The notes beneath the pieces were generated by a model, which ran no database searches, had not been told where the DNA came from, and was given only the letters and a program-made list of their open reading frames with translations. A stretch of DNA of 64,000 nt from Puniceicoccaceae bacterium 5H (GTDB taxonomy: Bacteria; Verrucomicrobiota; Verrucomicrobiia; Opitutales; Oceanipulchritudinaceae): NCBI GenBank assembly GCA_009772895.1, contig WOUP01000001.1, positions 62,001-126,000 on the forward strand, in the 5' to 3' direction. This document shows positions 13,012 to 47,159 of this stretch, piece by piece. The stretch's first letter is position 1, and each line of letters opens with the position of its first letter. The translations under genes and the position numbers were made by a program.

Positions 13012-14181
13012 TTACAGCTCGATTTCGGCCGCTTCCGGCTGCGCAGCGCCGGAGCCGCCCATCGGCTGATTCTTGGCCTCGTCAACGCTGTTGAAGAACG
13101 TCCAGTTGCGGGTTTCTTCGTAGGCGCGGCACTCGCCCTTCACCGCTTCGTTGCCGACCAGGATCAGCGTCAACGTGAGGTCCTGGCAGATCTCCTTGGC
13201 CTGAACCATCAGCTTGATGGTTTCCATGTCGATCTTTTGCAGGCGGCCAGCGTCGAGGATGACCTTGTAGAAGCCCTTGTCCACCGCGTCCGCAATCTTC
13301 CCCTTCATGTAGTTCTGCACTTCCGTCAGCATGTAGGAGTTGGTGTTGTGCGGCAGGTTGATGGTGAGGTAGTCCTCGTCGTAGGTAAAGTAGCGCTCGG
13401 AGGTATCGAGGTTGATGGCCTTGGCGACCTTCGTCTCGAGGTCCGCAAAGTCGATCGGCTTGGTTACGATGCTGTTGAAGCCGAGCTGCTGGGCCTTTTG
13501 CTGCAACTCCGTGTCCGTTTTTACCGCGAGACCGAAGACCGGGACATACTTGGTCTTGTGCTGGGCGCGCAGAATGCGGAAGAGGGAGAACGCACCATCT
13601 TCAGGCAGCGAGAGGCTGATGATGATCAGGTCGGGCATCTGCTTTTGGCAGAAGTCGATCGTGCCGCCCGTGGTCGAGACGCCGTGGATCTTCCAGTGCA
13701 GGTGGGCGAGGCCCTTGCTGATCTGGTCGATGATGATCGGCTTGTCTTCGACGACCAGGATGTCGACCGTGTCGGAGAGGCGTTTGGCCTTGCTGACCTT
13801 TTCGTCGGCGGGGCGCAGATCGATTACGCGGCCGGCCTTCTCGATCAGGACTTCTTCCTTGAAAGGCTTTACGATATAATCCCGGATGCCGAGTTTGGCG
13901 ATGCGGAGCACCGATTCGCGGCCGGCTTCTGCGGTCAACATGATGACCGGGATGGATTTCAGGGAGGGGTCGGCCTTCAGCTTGGTCAGCATCTCGATGC
14001 CATCCATCACCGGCATGGTGACGTCCAGAAGGATGATATCGGGTTGCTCCTTTGCCGCCAGCGCCAGACCCTCAACACCGTTGGAGGCTTCCAGCACTTC
14101 GCAGTCGTAGCTCCGGAAAGCTTTTTTGACAATGATGCGTACGGCGCGGGAGTCGTCGACTGTGAGGATTTTAAGACTCAT
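13012..14181 (-). CDS. REC - degenerate REC - STAS-like signalling protein
   Basis: A 389-residue cytoplasmic signalling protein. Residues 3-120 form an intact CheY-like receiver (D9, D10, phospho-acceptor D53 in LLDVTMP, K105 in VKPF). Residues 140-255 form a second receiver that keeps the fold and K241 but has Ser189 where the acceptor Asp should be (IIISLSLPEDG), so it cannot be phosphorylated normally. Residues about 265-360 resemble a STAS domain (VILDAGRLQKIDMETIKLMV). The combination suggests a phosphorylation-controlled adaptor rather than a transcription factor. It follows cheX by 43 bases on the same strand and ends at a strong terminator. Confidence 0.8.
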   Translation of the reverse strand: MSLKILTVDDSRAVRIIVKKAFRSYDCEVLEASNGVEGLALAAKEQPDIILLDVTMPVMDGIEMLTKLKADPSLKSIPVIMLTAEAGRESVLRIAKLGIRDYIVKPFKEEVLIEKAGRVIDLRPADEKVSKAKRLSDTVDILVVEDKPIIIDQISKGLAHLHWKIHGVSTTGGTIDFCQKQMPDLIIISLSLPEDGAFSLFRILRAQHKTKYVPVFGLAVKTDTELQQKAQQLGFNSIVTKPIDFADLETKVAKAINLDTSERYFTYDEDYLTINLPHNTNSYMLTEVQNYMKGKIADAVDKGFYKVILDAGRLQKIDMETIKLMVQAKEICQDLTLTLILVGNEAVKGECRAYEETRNWTFFNSVDEAKNQPMGGSGAAQPEAAEIEL

Positions 14182-14224: not shown

Positions 14225-14791
14225 CTAGGCGGTCTTCTTGAACATCATGTCCAGGAGGAGAACTTCTTGATACAGTTTGAACTGGAACCGTTGGCGGTGC
14301 ACGCCCGAAGCCGATTGAATGGTGAAATTGCTGCCGCGCACGATCGAGGGGACCGTAAGGCGGCACTCGTAGCCAAACTGCGACAGCGTGTTCTTGATCG
14401 TGCCGATGGTCATGTTGGCGACTTCGCCGAGGGCGTCGTTGACCACTTCGTGGTTGCCGCGGACGTCCTCCATTTCCATGCCCAGAAAACCGCAGGTCAC
14501 GTTCTCGGCCAGGGTTTCGGTAAAGTAGAGATAGGCGACGCCGTCGAGTTCACCGCAAAAGCCTACCGCCGCGACTACAAGGCCTTTGGTCTTGATGGGC
14601 AATTCTTCTGCGGGCGGCGGTTCGTCCGCCTCCAGATCGCGCTGGGCGGCGGCCTTTTCTTCGACCACGTCCGAATTCATGAACAAGACATCCGTTCCCA
14701 CCATGGTGGTGAAGAACCGATCAACTGCCTCAGTCACCAAAGCTTCGAGGCGTTCTCCGGAAATCTTTTCAGGTAAGGCAGTTGTTTTCAT
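14225..14791 (-). CDS. cheX: CheX-like CheY-phosphate phosphatase
   Basis: A 188-residue CheC/CheX/FliY-family protein. The phosphatase signature Glu-x3-Asn is visible in HEVVNDALGEVANMTIGTIK, with the GE-AN-GxxKN continuation typical of CheX. It also has the characteristic VAYLYFTETLAENV strand-helix unit. CheX dephosphorylates CheY-P and so resets the flagellar switch signal. An acidic, proline-rich insert (EEKAAAQRDLEADEPPPAEE) near residues 43-62 lengthens the N-terminal half compared with short CheX. The ATG at 14791 is preferred over a TTG 21 bases upstream. The STAS-containing receiver gene follows in the same operon. Confidence 0.85.
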   Translation of the reverse strand: MKTTALPEKISGERLEALVTEAVDRFFTTMVGTDVLFMNSDVVEEKAAAQRDLEADEPPPAEELPIKTKGLVVAAVGFCGELDGVAYLYFTETLAENVTCGFLGMEMEDVRGNHEVVNDALGEVANMTIGTIKNTLSQFGYECRLTVPSIVRGSNFTIQSASGVHRQRFQFKLYQEVLLLDMMFKKTA

Positions 14792-14855
14792 ACTCAATAC
14801 TTGGCGGGACAAAATAGATGGTCGTTGTTAGCGGTAGACTTGAAGTTAACTAGGT

Positions 14856-14912: not shown

Positions 14913-16709
14913 CTAGCAGTCTACCGGAGCCTCTTCCAACAACGGCATCGAAGGCAGATCCTGAAGTGTGTCGACCAGGCGTGGGACGCGCTTGATCAGC
15001 GGTTCCATCGCCGCCAGCAATTCCGAAGGCGAAAGCGAAAGCTCGACTTGCGAGGCGTCGAGGACGTGCCAGGCCGTGGCATGAATGAAGGCATCGGTGC
15101 CGTCTTCGTTCAGGTAACCTCGGAAACCGATGGAGGCGCCGGCAATCAACGTTTCCGCCAGCTGAGCCATGGAGGCGACCACCCGGGCCTGTTCGCCTTC
15201 GGCGCGATCCGGGTTTGTGTAATCGCGAGCGGCGGCCACCAGAGGGGAGGGGGCCTGCTGTTCGACCAGCCAGCGCTGGGCGGCATCTTCGGCCAGTTCG
15301 CCGAAAATACGATAACTGGCTTCGTGAAACGACGACATGCTAGCCTGAGCCCACGCCACCAGCAGCGAATAGCGCAGGGGCTGGGCGGTCGCCCAGAGCC
15401 ATTGGCCAAGCAGGGGCATCATGCCGGCCAATGCGGCTTCACGTGCGACCGGTAGTTTGCGGGTCAGATCCCAATAAAGGATGCTCGAGCCGAGAGTGTA
15501 ACGCGCCAGAGGACGCAAATCGATGGGGTTCCCGAGACGTCGCGCTTCATCTTGCCACAGGTTGAGCAGCAGAGCGACAATCAGCGGACCGGCGCCGAAC
15601 TTTTCGAGACCTTTTTTCAAGGCTGCCGTGCCGGTGATCCGCTCTCCTTCTTCCGAGACGAGCCGGCTGAGGTGCACGTTCAGACCCGGCACGGTGGCGA
15701 GGGCCCCCAGCGCGCGTCCGGGCGTAAACAGCTCATCCACCCAATGGCTCAGGCTGGCGGGCAGATAGTCGACGAGCTTGAGGCCCGGCACGGATTCATC
15801 CCAGCGCTGCGCGGGCAGATTGAGTTGGCTGAAGAGCTTGGAGTATTGGTAAAACGGAGCCTTCGTCATCTGCTGCCAGGCCTCCCGGGCAGCGTGACGG
15901 GCTTGCTGCGCCCATTCTTGTTTGCGCTGCTGGCGGCGGGCGGAACCCAGGGGCTCCTTTTCGCGGATGTTCTCACTCAGATCGCTCTCGCTCTGTATCT
16001 CGAAGTGAACGGCGAAGCGGTGCTGCATCAGCTTGGCGATAAACTCGGCTTGGCGCAGGTCGGCGATCGACTGATTCAGATCTTCGCTCTGCAAGTGCTG
16101 GTGCAGGCCATCGGCGATGTCATCGAGGGCGGTGACCCCCAGGGCCTTGGAAATGCTGTGGAGCTTGTCGAGGTAGGCCGCGCTCTTGCGCATTCGGGCG
16201 GTGCCGATCGCCCCCTTCAGGTTATGGACCACGTCGAGAATGCTTTCCGCATTCATGTGCAGCATGCGGTAATACTCGTCGTCGGAAAGATCCAGTCGGT
16301 GGCAAACGTGTTCGGCGGGTTCAAACAGTTTGTCTCGCCAGGAGAAGCTCAGGGCCTTTTCCAGCTCCTGCATCACACGCCCTTTCGCGTAGGGCTTTAC
16401 GAGGATGTTCTGGACCCCCAGCTTGAGATACTTGATGACCGAGCCACGGTCCGAGGTGGCGGTGTAGACGAGGACGGGGATGTGCTTGAAAATCGGGTCT
16501 GCCCGTAAGTCGCGGAGAAACTGCCAGCCATATTCCTCCCCCAGGACGTTGTCCAGGATGATCAGGTCCACGGAAATGGTGGACTGCATCAGCTGCCAAC
16601 CGCCCAGAACGGTATCCGCGAAACAGGCGTTGTGGCCGGCGCCTTCCAGCATCCTCTTCAGTAGCGTGCGCGCGAGGAGATCGTCCTCGACAATCAAAAC
16701 GGTGGCCAT
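14913..16709 (-). CDS. REC - HPt-like - HDOD-like signalling protein
   Basis: A 598-residue protein. Residues 1-120 are a receiver (E8-D9-D10, acceptor D53 in IILDNVLG, K105 in LVKPY). Residues about 145-215 contain HNLKG (His162) in a helical context, matching the HPt phospho-His motif. Residues about 310-480 look like an HDOD output domain (GRALGALATVPGLNVHLSRL, then AALKKGLEKFGAG). The last 100 residues are unassigned. A receiver, a possible His phosphotransfer site and an HDOD-like domain on one chain point to a phosphorelay hub that controls motility or development; partners are unknown. The HPt call is from a short motif and less sure than the receiver. Confidence 0.7.
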   Translation of the reverse strand: MATVLIVEDDLLARTLLKRMLEGAGHNACFADTVLGGWQLMQSTISVDLIILDNVLGEEYGWQFLRDLRADPIFKHIPVLVYTATSDRGSVIKYLKLGVQNILVKPYAKGRVMQELEKALSFSWRDKLFEPAEHVCHRLDLSDDEYYRMLHMNAESILDVVHNLKGAIGTARMRKSAAYLDKLHSISKALGVTALDDIADGLHQHLQSEDLNQSIADLRQAEFIAKLMQHRFAVHFEIQSESDLSENIREKEPLGSARRQQRKQEWAQQARHAAREAWQQMTKAPFYQYSKLFSQLNLPAQRWDESVPGLKLVDYLPASLSHWVDELFTPGRALGALATVPGLNVHLSRLVSEEGERITGTAALKKGLEKFGAGPLIVALLLNLWQDEARRLGNPIDLRPLARYTLGSSILYWDLTRKLPVAREAALAGMMPLLGQWLWATAQPLRYSLLVAWAQASMSSFHEASYRIFGELAEDAAQRWLVEQQAPSPLVAAARDYTNPDRAEGEQARVVASMAQLAETLIAGASIGFRGYLNEDGTDAFIHATAWHVLDASQVELSLSPSELLAAMEPLIKRVPRLVDTLQDLPSMPLLEEAPVDC

Positions 16710-36204: not shown

Positions 36205-36807
36205 ATGGCCAAAGAACCCAAAGACAAGGAAACGATTGAAGAGTTGCCCACTCCCAAGAAGAGCGGCGGCGGTGGCAACCCCTTGATTCCTGTTCTCGCC
36301 GTTGTCATTCTGTTGCCTTTGCTTTCCTACGCAATGACGGCCTTCGTGCTGGTGCCCATGCTCAAGTCGGAGCTCGCCGGCGGGGGCGATCACGCCGAGG
36401 AGGCCGCTCATGCGGCCCCAGCAGCCAGCAGTCACGGCAGTAGCGGTGGCGGTGGCAGCCATGGCGGGGGTGACAGCCACGGTGGTGGCGGAGGAGATTC
36501 TGCGGCACACGGTAACATGGTGACGTTCGACTTGATGAAGACGAACCTCGCGCGCCCTTCCAGCACGCTGATTATCGTCAAGTTTGCCGTCGAAGGCAGC
36601 GACCCCAATTTTGCCGGCATCGTCGAATCGCGCAAACCCGCACTCATCGATGCGACCCTCAAGATCTTGAGTCTGCTGACCCTCGTGGATACGCAGACGC
36701 CCGGTATCCAGAACATTGTGAAGACCGACCTCATTACGGCCTACAACGAGATCCTCGGCGGGCCGTACGTGGAGAATCTTTACTTTACCGATTTCGTGAC
36801 CCAGTAG
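36205..36807 (+). CDS. fliL: Flagellar basal-body protein FliL
   Basis: A 200-residue FliL. A membrane helix at about residues 28-52 (LIPVLAVVILLPLLSYAM) follows a short cytoplasmic tail; then comes a linker of Gly, His and Ser (residues about 60-103, GSSGGGGSHGGGDSHGGGG), and a C-terminal periplasmic domain (STLIIVKFAVEGSDPNFAGI). FliL associates with the stator near the rotor. The glycine-histidine linker is unusual for FliL and could bind metal. Confidence 0.88.
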   Translation: MAKEPKDKETIEELPTPKKSGGGGNPLIPVLAVVILLPLLSYAMTAFVLVPMLKSELAGGGDHAEEAAHAAPAASSHGSSGGGGSHGGGDSHGGGGGDSAAHGNMVTFDLMKTNLARPSSTLIIVKFAVEGSDPNFAGIVESRKPALIDATLKILSLLTLVDTQTPGIQNIVKTDLITAYNEILGGPYVENLYFTDFVTQ

Positions 36808-36846: not shown

Positions 36847-38172
36847 ATGGCTGACTTTCCCGGAGACTCGCAGGAGGAAAACCTCGACTTTCAGGAAGAG
36901 AATCTCGACGAGAATCTCGAGCCTTCCGCTGGCTCGGAGGGCGACGCGAGCGAGAACCTGAGCGAGGACGACATTGCGAACCTGCTCAATCAGGAGCAGG
37001 ACTCGGATGAAGGTGCCTCCGCCGAGGACATTCTCAGCGAAGAGAGCATTTCCGATATCCTCAAGGAGGGCGGCGGCTCGGACTTCGGAGACGGAGATGG
37101 CGATGATATGATGCTGCAGGAGGAAGAAGCCGACATCCTGCAGGAAGACTCGCCCAGCGACTTCTTTAACCAGAACGATGTCGACGATATCCTCAACCAG
37201 ACGGACATCGACGCCATCATGGCGGAGGCGGGGACTTCGCCTCGTTCCCTGGTATTCCGGCACACTGGTGCCCGGGTCGGAGCTGATGAGAAGATCACGA
37301 TCGAGGAGTATGACTTTTCGAATCCGGTTTTCATGACCGAGTCGGAGATGCGGCAAGTCCGTATCCGCCATGAACAATTCGTCCACCATCTCTCGGCCCG
37401 TCTTTCCATGTTTTTGCGCATGGATGTGGGCCTGAAGATGTCCAAGCTCTTCACAACCCAGTACCAGAACCACACCAGCTCTATCCCGAGCCCCACGCAC
37501 ATCTCGTTGTTCAAGCTACAGCAGTTCAACGGCGTGGGCATTGTCGACATCAACCCCCGTCTGGCCATGACAATGGTCGACCGCCTGCTCGGTGGTCCGG
37601 GCCACTCGATCCGCGGCGAGCGCTACCTGACGGAGCTCGAAGTCGTGCTGATCGAAGACGTGGTGGAGGTGATCGTCAACGAATGGTGCCAGCAGTGGGA
37701 AGACATCTACGAGCTGAACGCCTCGCTGATCGGCAACGAAAACAATGGCCGCTTTCTGCAGACCTCACCGCGCGACACCATCTTGCTCGTCGTGGTGATC
37801 GAGGCGATCATGGGCGACTGCACCGAAACGCTCGAGATCGCGCTGCCGTATTACACCATCCAGCCCGTGTTGAAGACGCTGCAGGATGAGGCCAAGAAGT
37901 TCAGCCAGCTCAATACGACCGAGAAAAGCCAGCGCTGGTGGAATACCTACGACCACATCCAGGTGCCGATCCAGGCCGAATGGAGTGGGGTGGAGTGCAA
38001 CGTGCGCGACCTGCTGATGCTGCGACCCGGCGACGTGATCATGATGCCGAACGACGTTCTGGAAAAAACTCTTTTGCGGATGAACAACACCGCGCCCTAT
38101 CGTGGAAAAGTCGGGGTGCAGGACGGCCACGTTGCCGTGCAAGTCACCGAACAACTCATCGACTTCGAATAA
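36847..38172 (+). CDS. fliM: Flagellar motor switch protein FliM with extended N-terminus
   Basis: A 441-residue FliM. Residues about 160-345 are the middle CheC-like domain (HHLSARLSMFLRMDVGLKMS and INPRLAMTMVDRLLGGPGHS), and 370-440 the FliN-like surface (SGVECNVRDLLMLRPGDVI). The first 130 residues are acidic and carry four spaced copies of a motif like the CheY-P-binding LSQxEIDALL: LSEDDIANLL (38-47), LSEESISDIL (63-72), FNQNDVDDIL (107-116) and LNQTDIDAIM (116-125). Classical FliM has one. A clear Shine-Dalgarno (AGGAG) precedes the ATG at 36847. Confidence 0.94.
   Translation: MADFPGDSQEENLDFQEENLDENLEPSAGSEGDASENLSEDDIANLLNQEQDSDEGASAEDILSEESISDILKEGGGSDFGDGDGDDMMLQEEEADILQEDSPSDFFNQNDVDDILNQTDIDAIMAEAGTSPRSLVFRHTGARVGADEKITIEEYDFSNPVFMTESEMRQVRIRHEQFVHHLSARLSMFLRMDVGLKMSKLFTTQYQNHTSSIPSPTHISLFKLQQFNGVGIVDINPRLAMTMVDRLLGGPGHSIRGERYLTELEVVLIEDVVEVIVNEWCQQWEDIYELNASLIGNENNGRFLQTSPRDTILLVVVIEAIMGDCTETLEIALPYYTIQPVLKTLQDEAKKFSQLNTTEKSQRWWNTYDHIQVPIQAEWSGVECNVRDLLMLRPGDVIMMPNDVLEKTLLRMNNTAPYRGKVGVQDGHVAVQVTEQLIDFE
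36958..37221 (+). repeat. Fourfold CheY-binding-like motif array in FliM
   Basis: This coding segment holds the four copies of a ten-residue motif resembling the FliM CheY-P site, spaced by 15, 34 and 0 residues (the last two share a Leu). Acidic low-complexity linkers separate them. Confidence 0.65.
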
Positions 38173-38181
38173 GCTACACCG

Positions 38182-38442
38182 ATGGATATACGCGAAGCCA
38201 AGAATTTCAGCCGGGTGATGGACATCAAGGTGGAAGTCACCATCCAGCTCGGCTCCTGTGAGTTGCCGATGCGCGAGATCGTCGAACTGACGCCGGGCGC
38301 GGTGCTGCAGCTCAAGCAAAACGCCAAGGAACCCGTCGCACTGCTCGTCAATGGCAAGCTGATTGCCTACGGCGAAGTCGTGGTGGTCGAAAACAATTTC
38401 GGCGTCAAAATCACGGAGTTGGTAGGAGACGCCAATGCCTAG
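38182..38442 (+). CDS. fliN: Flagellar motor switch protein FliN (minimal)
   Basis: An 86-residue C-ring subunit consisting only of the SpoA domain (VEVTIQLGSCELPMREIVEL, LTPGAVLQLKQNAKEPVALL, KLIAYGEVVVVENNFGVKIT). No FliY-like phosphatase extension. FliN forms the base of the C ring and docks FliH. It overlaps fliO by 8 bases. Confidence 0.94.
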   Translation: MDIREAKNFSRVMDIKVEVTIQLGSCELPMREIVELTPGAVLQLKQNAKEPVALLVNGKLIAYGEVVVVENNFGVKITELVGDANA

Positions 38443-46304: not shown

Positions 46305-47159
46305 ATGTTTATCATTATCGGATTCGTCATTGTCTTTATCTCCGCCATGGGTGGCTTTATCCTGGCGGGCGGTAACCCGATGGTCCTGCTCCACATCTCG
46401 GAGTTTGTGGTGATCGGTGGCGTCAGTCTGGGCATCCTCATCATTTCCACGCCGATCAACGTGCTGAAGGCACTGATGGGCGACGTCCTCGGCTCTTTCA
46501 AGGGATCCCCGCTGACGCAGGCAGAAGTGGACGACCTCTTCAAAATGCTCTACGAGCTGTTCATGCTGGGCCGGCGCAATGGTTTGCTGGCGCTGGACGA
46601 GCACATGTCGGATCCGGCCAATAGCACACTTTTCAGCAAATACCCGTCGTTCATGAAGAATCACAAGCGCCAGGAGTTTCTGATCAACTCCTTGCGTCCG
46701 ATCATCGACGGCAAGATCAAGCCTGAGCAGCTCTCCTCCATCATGGAAAAGGAGGTGGATGCGATGGAAGAAGAGTCGCACCATACCACCGGCGTCTTGC
46801 TGCTGGTGGGCGACTCTCTGCCCGGGGTGGGCATCGTGGCTGCCGTGTTGGGGATCATCAATACGATGTCGGCCATTTCCGAAGGCCCGGGGGCGGTAGG
46901 TCACAAGGTGGCGGCAGCGCTTACCGGCACCTTTCTCGGTATTTTCATGGCCTATGGTTTTATCAACCCCTTGGCCAAGAACCTCGAATTTCGCCACAGC
47001 ACCGCGCTCTCCTACTACCGCGCGATGATGAACGCTGTGGTCAGCTTCACCCGCGGCCTTTCGCCCATCATGGCGCTGGAAATCGCCCGTCGCGGCTTGC
47101 CGGAGGATCTCATGATCGAGGCCGACAAGCTCGAGGAAATGCTCAAGGAACTGGGTTGA
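46305..47159 (+). CDS. motA: Flagellar stator protein MotA
   Basis: A 284-residue MotA with four membrane helices (FIIIGFVIVFISAMGGFILA, EFVVIGGVSLGILIISTPIN; then the pair around LPGVGIVAAVLGIINTMSAI and VGHKVAAALTGTFLGIFMAY). The cytoplasmic loop (KYPSFMKNHKRQEFLINSLR) carries the charged residues that contact FliG. It forms the ion channel with MotB. 8 bases after fliA; motB follows after 15 bases. Confidence 0.94.
   Translation: MFIIIGFVIVFISAMGGFILAGGNPMVLLHISEFVVIGGVSLGILIISTPINVLKALMGDVLGSFKGSPLTQAEVDDLFKMLYELFMLGRRNGLLALDEHMSDPANSTLFSKYPSFMKNHKRQEFLINSLRPIIDGKIKPEQLSSIMEKEVDAMEEESHHTTGVLLLVGDSLPGVGIVAAVLGIINTMSAISEGPGAVGHKVAAALTGTFLGIFMAYGFINPLAKNLEFRHSTALSYYRAMMNAVVSFTRGLSPIMALEIARRGLPEDLMIEADKLEEMLKELG

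Follow-up and report, generated by a model that had tools for sequence, protein, structure and literature searches.

In textbook accounts of chemotaxis, the output step is the docking of a CheY-type receiver on FliM, for which one motif per subunit is assumed; the receiver binds with its α4-β5-α5 face. The N-terminal CheY-binding motif of FliM is LSQxEIDxLL, and the complex of E. coli CheY with FliM-N is PDB 1F4V, according to the available text of the source (PMC9126983). In the same text, CheY-P first binds FliM-N with high affinity and is passed on from there to the FliM middle domain; the docking groove on CheY is placed at α4 and α5, and affinities range from 27 μM for the FliM-N peptide to 39 nM for residues 1-249 of T. 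maritima FliM (PMC9126983). In Caulobacter, as the available parts of two reports state, the motif is set back from the N-terminal end (Ile57/Asp58), and several CheY-like proteins dock there (PMC5677366, PMC7534056).

The FliM encoded in the window (the whole 64-kb stretch of DNA analysed here) agrees with the E. coli-type protein in its expected domains and in the place of motif 4, directly before the core. It differs in a 115-residue acidic extension, in which one further copy of the motif overlaps motif 4 and one or two others are looser, whereas one motif was the rule among the FliM proteins surveyed here. The contrast with Caulobacter is that there, as far as the text of those reports goes, one motif is common to many ligands, whereas the window FliM has extra motif copies. 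The window also encodes P0002, which over residues 1-296 is built like PleD (REC/pseudo-REC/output; E 7.4e-26), including a second receiver without a phospho-Asp, but it has a weak STAS-like C-terminus instead of GGDEF and is linked to cheX and flagella. As in the CheX/CheY dephosphorylation systems, cheX adjoins a receiver gene; here, however, the receiver is a tandem protein and not a stand-alone CheY. No paper on several CheY motifs in one FliM was found by title or abstract start in the open-licence literature, and none on a CheX-linked REC/pseudo-REC/STAS protein by title or abstract start among the matches listed.

We found that the FliM array is real, modest and unequal, a variant of known docking. 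Our leading interpretation, to which we give a probability of roughly 0.4, is that the FliM tail may combine one canonical docking site with extra sites of lower grade that would raise the receiver concentration at the switch.

Motif strings in the N-terminus of FliM

The fliM gene (Table 1) encodes the sole FliM found in the 4.1-Mb genome (98.64% complete), and the protein has both domains expected of the family. Residues 1-115 contain 36% D+E and a single K/R, compared with 13% D+E from residue 126 on, so that the acidic N-terminus reported in an earlier note on this DNA is borne out. The extension was absent from the five FliM proteins of other genera in the family. An AlphaFold2 model (24 FliM rows, congener excluded) predicted that the extension is disordered, with helices only at residues 40-48 (motif 1) and 118-128 (motif 4) and a pLDDT of ~55-65. 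A PDB search with a one-motif FliM N-terminus gave no match. FliL, encoded at 36205-36807, has a Gly/His/Ser-rich linker ahead of the FliL domain.

Table 1. Positions in the window of the fliM region and of the cheX-P0002 pair
Feature	Position	Strand	Details
fliM	36847..38172	+	441 aa; ATG start preceded by AGGAG
Acidic N-terminal extension of FliM	36847..37191	+	residues 1-115
Motif 1, LSEDDIANLL	36958..36987	+	residues 38-47; 14.9 bits; low-confidence helix 40-48
Motif 2, LSEESISDIL	37033..37062	+	residues 63-72; 0.3 bits
Motif 3, FNQNDVDDIL	37165..37194	+	residues 107-116; 9.8 bits; Q3 and D7 retained
Motif 4, LNQTDIDAIM	37192..37221	+	residues 116-125; 21.0 bits
FliM middle domain (Pfam FliM)	37309..37881	+	residues 155-345; 126.4 bits, over cut-off
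FliM C-terminal domain (Pfam FliMN_C)	37951..38154	+	residues 369-436; 52.8 bits, over cut-off
fliN	38182..38442	+	86 aa; no N-terminal docking motif by eye
P0002, REC/pseudo-REC/STAS-like	13012..14181	-	proposed FliM-motif ligand
cheX (Pfam CheX)	14225..14812	-	directly upstream of the P0002 gene

The earlier note had described four spaced CheY-binding-like variants in this extension. All four strings are present, but motifs 3 and 4 overlap by one residue, L116, and the four are far from equal: their scores fall in the order 4, 1, 3, 2, in a profile made from 33 different motifs of 103 FliM loci (both congeners left out, and several loci being one genome under two handles). In alignments, motif 4 falls on the one docking motif that FliM has in other genera, and it belongs with the docking motifs. 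A crude set of 66 ORFs of the window (20,935 residues) has this motif and motif 1 as its two best-scoring 10-mers; three 10-mers from outside FliM score at least as high there as motif 3, which is borderline. Motif 2 is, by score, not distinguishable from background. A MotA-like protein (46305-47159) contains LTQAEVDDLF, which reaches 10.5 bits in the FliM profile, probably by chance.

The composition of the motifs separated them further. Position 3 is E in motifs 1 and 2 and Q in 103/103 motifs of other genera, for which the search pattern admitted Q or E; position 7 is A in motif 1 and S in motif 2, compared with D (96), E (5) or N (2) in other genera, under a pattern that admitted D, E, N or Q. 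Motif 3 has both Q3 and an acidic or Asn residue at position 7, and this combination is absent from motifs 1 and 2 in both congeners. Motif 3 aligns with a segment that precedes the motif in other genera (such as NENDLNEIL), and may, from this alignment, be an elaborated pre-motif segment rather than a duplicate. At the DNA level, DNA duplication found little support as the origin of the motifs: there was no clear tandem duplication, and the copies share short matches only, namely one exact 12-mer common to the ends of motifs 2 and 3 and a pair of 27-base stretches, 70% alike, that joins motifs 3 and 4.

These features are compatible with another explanation, which we consider somewhat unlikely. 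Docking could occur at motif 4 only, with motif 3 as its N-terminal extension, and the rest of the tail could serve as an acidic, disordered tether through which the FliM core reaches further; motifs 1 and 2 would then be hydrophobic patches that look like motifs by composition. The background score of motif 2, the lack of Q3 and D7 in motifs 1 and 2, and the alignment of motif 3 with a stretch that relatives with one motif also have all favour a tether, but the second rank of motif 1 among the window 10-mers speaks against it. In 20,000 shuffles, the total score of the three best hits ahead of motif 4 in the extension was reached in 0.08% of cases for the window FliM and in 0.76% for the congener. 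Motifs 1 and 3 account for this result in the window FliM, and motif 3 for most of it in the congener; the hit ranked third was in each species an unrelated acidic string, none of the four motifs, and motif 2 contributed nothing to the sum.

The FliM of the congener (G016, the only other genome of the genus in the set) is 77% identical to that of the window. At the places of motifs 1-4 it has ISEDEISKIL, LSEEDLQGIL, FSQADVDSIL and LNQTDIDAIM, scoring 1.3, -2.3, 14.4 and 21.0 bits; motif 4 is thus identical in the two species, and position 7 of motifs 1 and 2 is S and Q. The weak score of motif 1 in this species also favours a tether. On the other side, the motif places outconserve the linkers: 17/29 columns of the extra motifs are identical (59%) and ungapped, compared with 26/86 (30%) for the linkers, in which 17 columns are gapped, and 273/316 for the core. 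The anchors are hydrophobic in both congeners at 12/12 positions (shared L116 included), against 7/14 for other hydrophobic residues when a gap is scored as not kept. Circular shifts of the motif mask were equally conserved in 1/114 cases by BLOSUM sum and 3/114 by identities, values that come from one species pair with an uncertain alignment in the linkers and with motifs defined on the window protein. The congener is thus a fair but single test of motif conservation.

Motifs 1 and 2, which share the pattern [LI]SE[DE], could also bind a partner other than that of motif 4, for instance a different receiver or a component of the C-ring or the export machinery. This appears quite unlikely to us. 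Their E3 and non-acidic position 7 in both congeners set them apart from motifs 3 and 4, the SE-type pattern, drawn post hoc, occurs at two places only in the 66 window ORFs, and the genome offers 81 receiver-domain matches (80 over the cut-off) as possible partners; against this, the score of motif 1 in the window species remains that of a FliM docking motif.

Motif number among other FliM proteins

The survey covered the order and the phylum, plus a few Planctomycetota and Pseudomonas. FliM was present in 7/17 family genomes, 78/273 order genomes and 45/387 phylum genomes, sets that partly overlap. An alignment-based contig scan fetched 62 named loci, of which 61 had a FliM frame and one (L145) did not; the same scan with a single FliM protein as query gave no match. 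The survey set took in the FliM proteins of the 78 order genomes and, from the phylum search, those of the loci listed, the named loci and the genomes with G handles being partly the same.

Across these relatives, the N-termini do vary in motif number, a point that the earlier note had proposed to check. Among 137 distinct FliM proteins, 42 had no hit of at least 8 bits, 90 had one, four had two and one, that of the window, had three; part-length proteins may be included (for example L080, L085, L122, L134 and L144), and some of the 42 may be truncated. The five FliM proteins from other genera of the family had one motif each. Two hits were found in the congener, L026, L030 and L102, the second hit of L102 (8.3 bits) being probably due to chance. 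L026, which is the same as L091 (Verrucomicrobia GWF2_51_19, G028), has motifs of 22.4 and 27.2 bits that start 39 residues apart. L030, the same as L090 (GWC2_42_7, G031), has an overlapping tandem of 8.6 and 19.7 bits with a 9-residue period, as in motifs 3 and 4. Judged from this distribution, the motif array is a genus-level elaboration.

FliM proteins of family f19 (L077, L078, L080) have acidic N-termini of ~60-80 residues and one motif, which favours a tether; the same tails, however, contain no extra hit of at least 8 bits, which speaks against it. For the putative docking at several sites, the picture is mixed. Motif places are kept in the congener while linkers vary in length and sequence, and a second motif occurs elsewhere in the order (L026 = L091; L030 = L090), but neither motif 1 nor motif 2 has Q3 or an acidic residue at position 7, and the score of motif 2 stays at background.

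In family f2 (loci among L036-L075), the canonical motif was absent from FliM in 33 genomes, 32 of which have an FDxSEI-like stretch; the remaining one is cut by a contig end. No f2 genome appears in the sets with CheX or with P0002.

Receiver proteins of the window and the genome

The earlier note had linked the array to many stand-alone receivers encoded in the window and hence to multi-receiver input. We found 10 receiver domains in the 64-kb window, in 9 proteins of 384-907 aa, and none of them is a stand-alone receiver. Nine of the genome's receiver matches lie in open frames of at most 199 aa, all outside the window. These short frames and the large receiver complement would suit an integration in which different stand-alone CheY-type receivers dock at one motif each, and precedents exist for several ligands: in the available text of the reports, each of CheY1-6 of R. 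sphaeroides binds FliM, and FliM is also where several CheY/Cle proteins of Caulobacter act (PMC2829493, PMC5677366, PMC7534056). The Caulobacter receivers, however, share a single motif in those same texts (PMC5677366, PMC7534056). Motif number does not follow receiver number either: by rough counts, the genome with two strong motifs (G028) has 17 receiver candidates, and seven f14 genomes with 114-179 have one motif. With the window free of stand-alone receivers as well, we regard such integration as very unlikely, and the note's multi-receiver input was not supported.

A second chemotaxis set of canonical make-up, consisting of cheA, a stand-alone cheY, STAS, cheW, cheB and cheR, is located on contig C2 (L162, L169). 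The cheA-linked CheY, P0005, has 4hnr as its closest solved match, which we take to be V. cholerae CheY4. None of the 16 other genomes searched in the family, the congener included, gave a match to P0005 at 1e-22. This counts against multi-receiver integration, and on the same ground we reject P0005 as a lineage-wide FliM ligand; it may still be active at FliM in the window species. For the other short receivers, compared between this genome and four relatives, no family-wide orthologue was present among the matches listed, the best case there being a congener pair at 68% plus a 41% match in G013. A second CheA-like kinase is encoded at L171:6255-8450, with a CheW domain match that spans half of the profile.

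The CheX-linked tandem receiver and a putative docking mechanism

P0002 consists of two receiver domains and a C-terminal region whose STAS match is weak (E 0.0042, below the Pfam cut-off). A CheY receiver is recognised by an Asp pair, a phospho-Asp, a Thr, a Tyr and a Lys. The first receiver of P0002 has all of them (D9, D10, D53, T83, Y102 and K105) in 7/7 full-length family members and is of the CheY type; in the second, Ser (residue 189) stands in for the phospho-Asp, again in 7/7. Matches covering at least residues 3-370 were found in 7/7 family genomes with FliM and in 0/10 of the others, two of which had a partial receiver match. In the order, 34/273 genomes have a homologue, by a search at E 1e-45 with at most 7 candidates per genome fully scored, which may have missed distant relatives; 32 of these genomes have FliM, and the two without it have a completeness of 81% and 86%. 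CheX was found in 36/273 order genomes, including all 34 with P0002, and it lies upstream of P0002 on the same strand in 34/34, with 63-119 bases between the matched stretches.

The presence of P0002 accompanied that of the motif. Among FliM genomes with a hit of at least 12 bits, 32/38 have P0002, compared with 0/40 of those below 12 bits (Fisher p 3.5e-16, kinship ignored). This cut-off was chosen post hoc in place of 8 bits, two f2 genomes having scored 9.4 and 10.3 through FDxSE strings; at 8 bits, 32 motif-bearing genomes have P0002 and 8 lack it, against 0 and 38 of the rest. The six genomes with a motif of at least 12 bits and no P0002 are G027, G034, G052, G066, G120 and G211, and 33 of the 40 motif-free genomes come from the one family f2. 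Within f14, G079 and G263 have neither motif nor P0002, and G211 has the motif without P0002. On a tree of the FliM core, independent pairs were concordant in 1.8-2.4 of 4 and never opposed (median p 0.5 and 0.25). The association is thus clade-structured, with independent pairs too few for significance. The idea that P0002 gave rise to the extra motifs was unsupported, P0002 being present in 7/7 family FliM genomes at any motif number. Collectively, these comparisons suggest that P0002 is the most likely, though putative, ligand of the FliM motif in this lineage.

PleD dimerises on phosphorylation, and because P0002 shares the PleD-like build, we infer that it may do the same; a dimeric ligand would be bivalent. 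Binding, the working sites, the ligand, its dimerisation and the switching effect are all inferred in the mechanism that we propose for docking at several sites. Motif 4 would be the one ancestral CheY-type docking helix directly before the FliM core, motif 3 a second register that overlaps it, and motif 1, perhaps also motif 2, looser copies upstream in the disordered acidic tail. Because they overlap, motifs 3 and 4 cannot both dock as full helices simultaneously. A phosphorylated CheY-type receiver could be captured at any site through its α4-β5-α5 face and then be passed to the FliM middle domain and FliN, and the extra sites would increase the capture rate and the dwell time at the ring while leaving the output unchanged. 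By analogy, a flexible tail with additional sites would suit the first step of the two-step model. We consider unlikely the wider proposal that, across the order, CheX-linked P0002 took over the role of CheY at the switch and that the FliM of one genus answered such a dimer-prone partner with a tail of two or more docking sites, for avidity-tuned switching.

If docking at several sites is correct, the switch of one genus may have more than one point at which it captures its signal protein. The naturally graded tail lends itself to testing whether the sensitivity of switching is set by the number of sites. For the order, the linkage of the motif, CheX and the tandem receiver yields a candidate switch ligand. 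Elsewhere in the window, a 598-aa protein (14913-16709) has an N-terminal receiver with weak Hpt and HDOD matches; among the regions compared from four relatives, its near full-length match was in the congener only.
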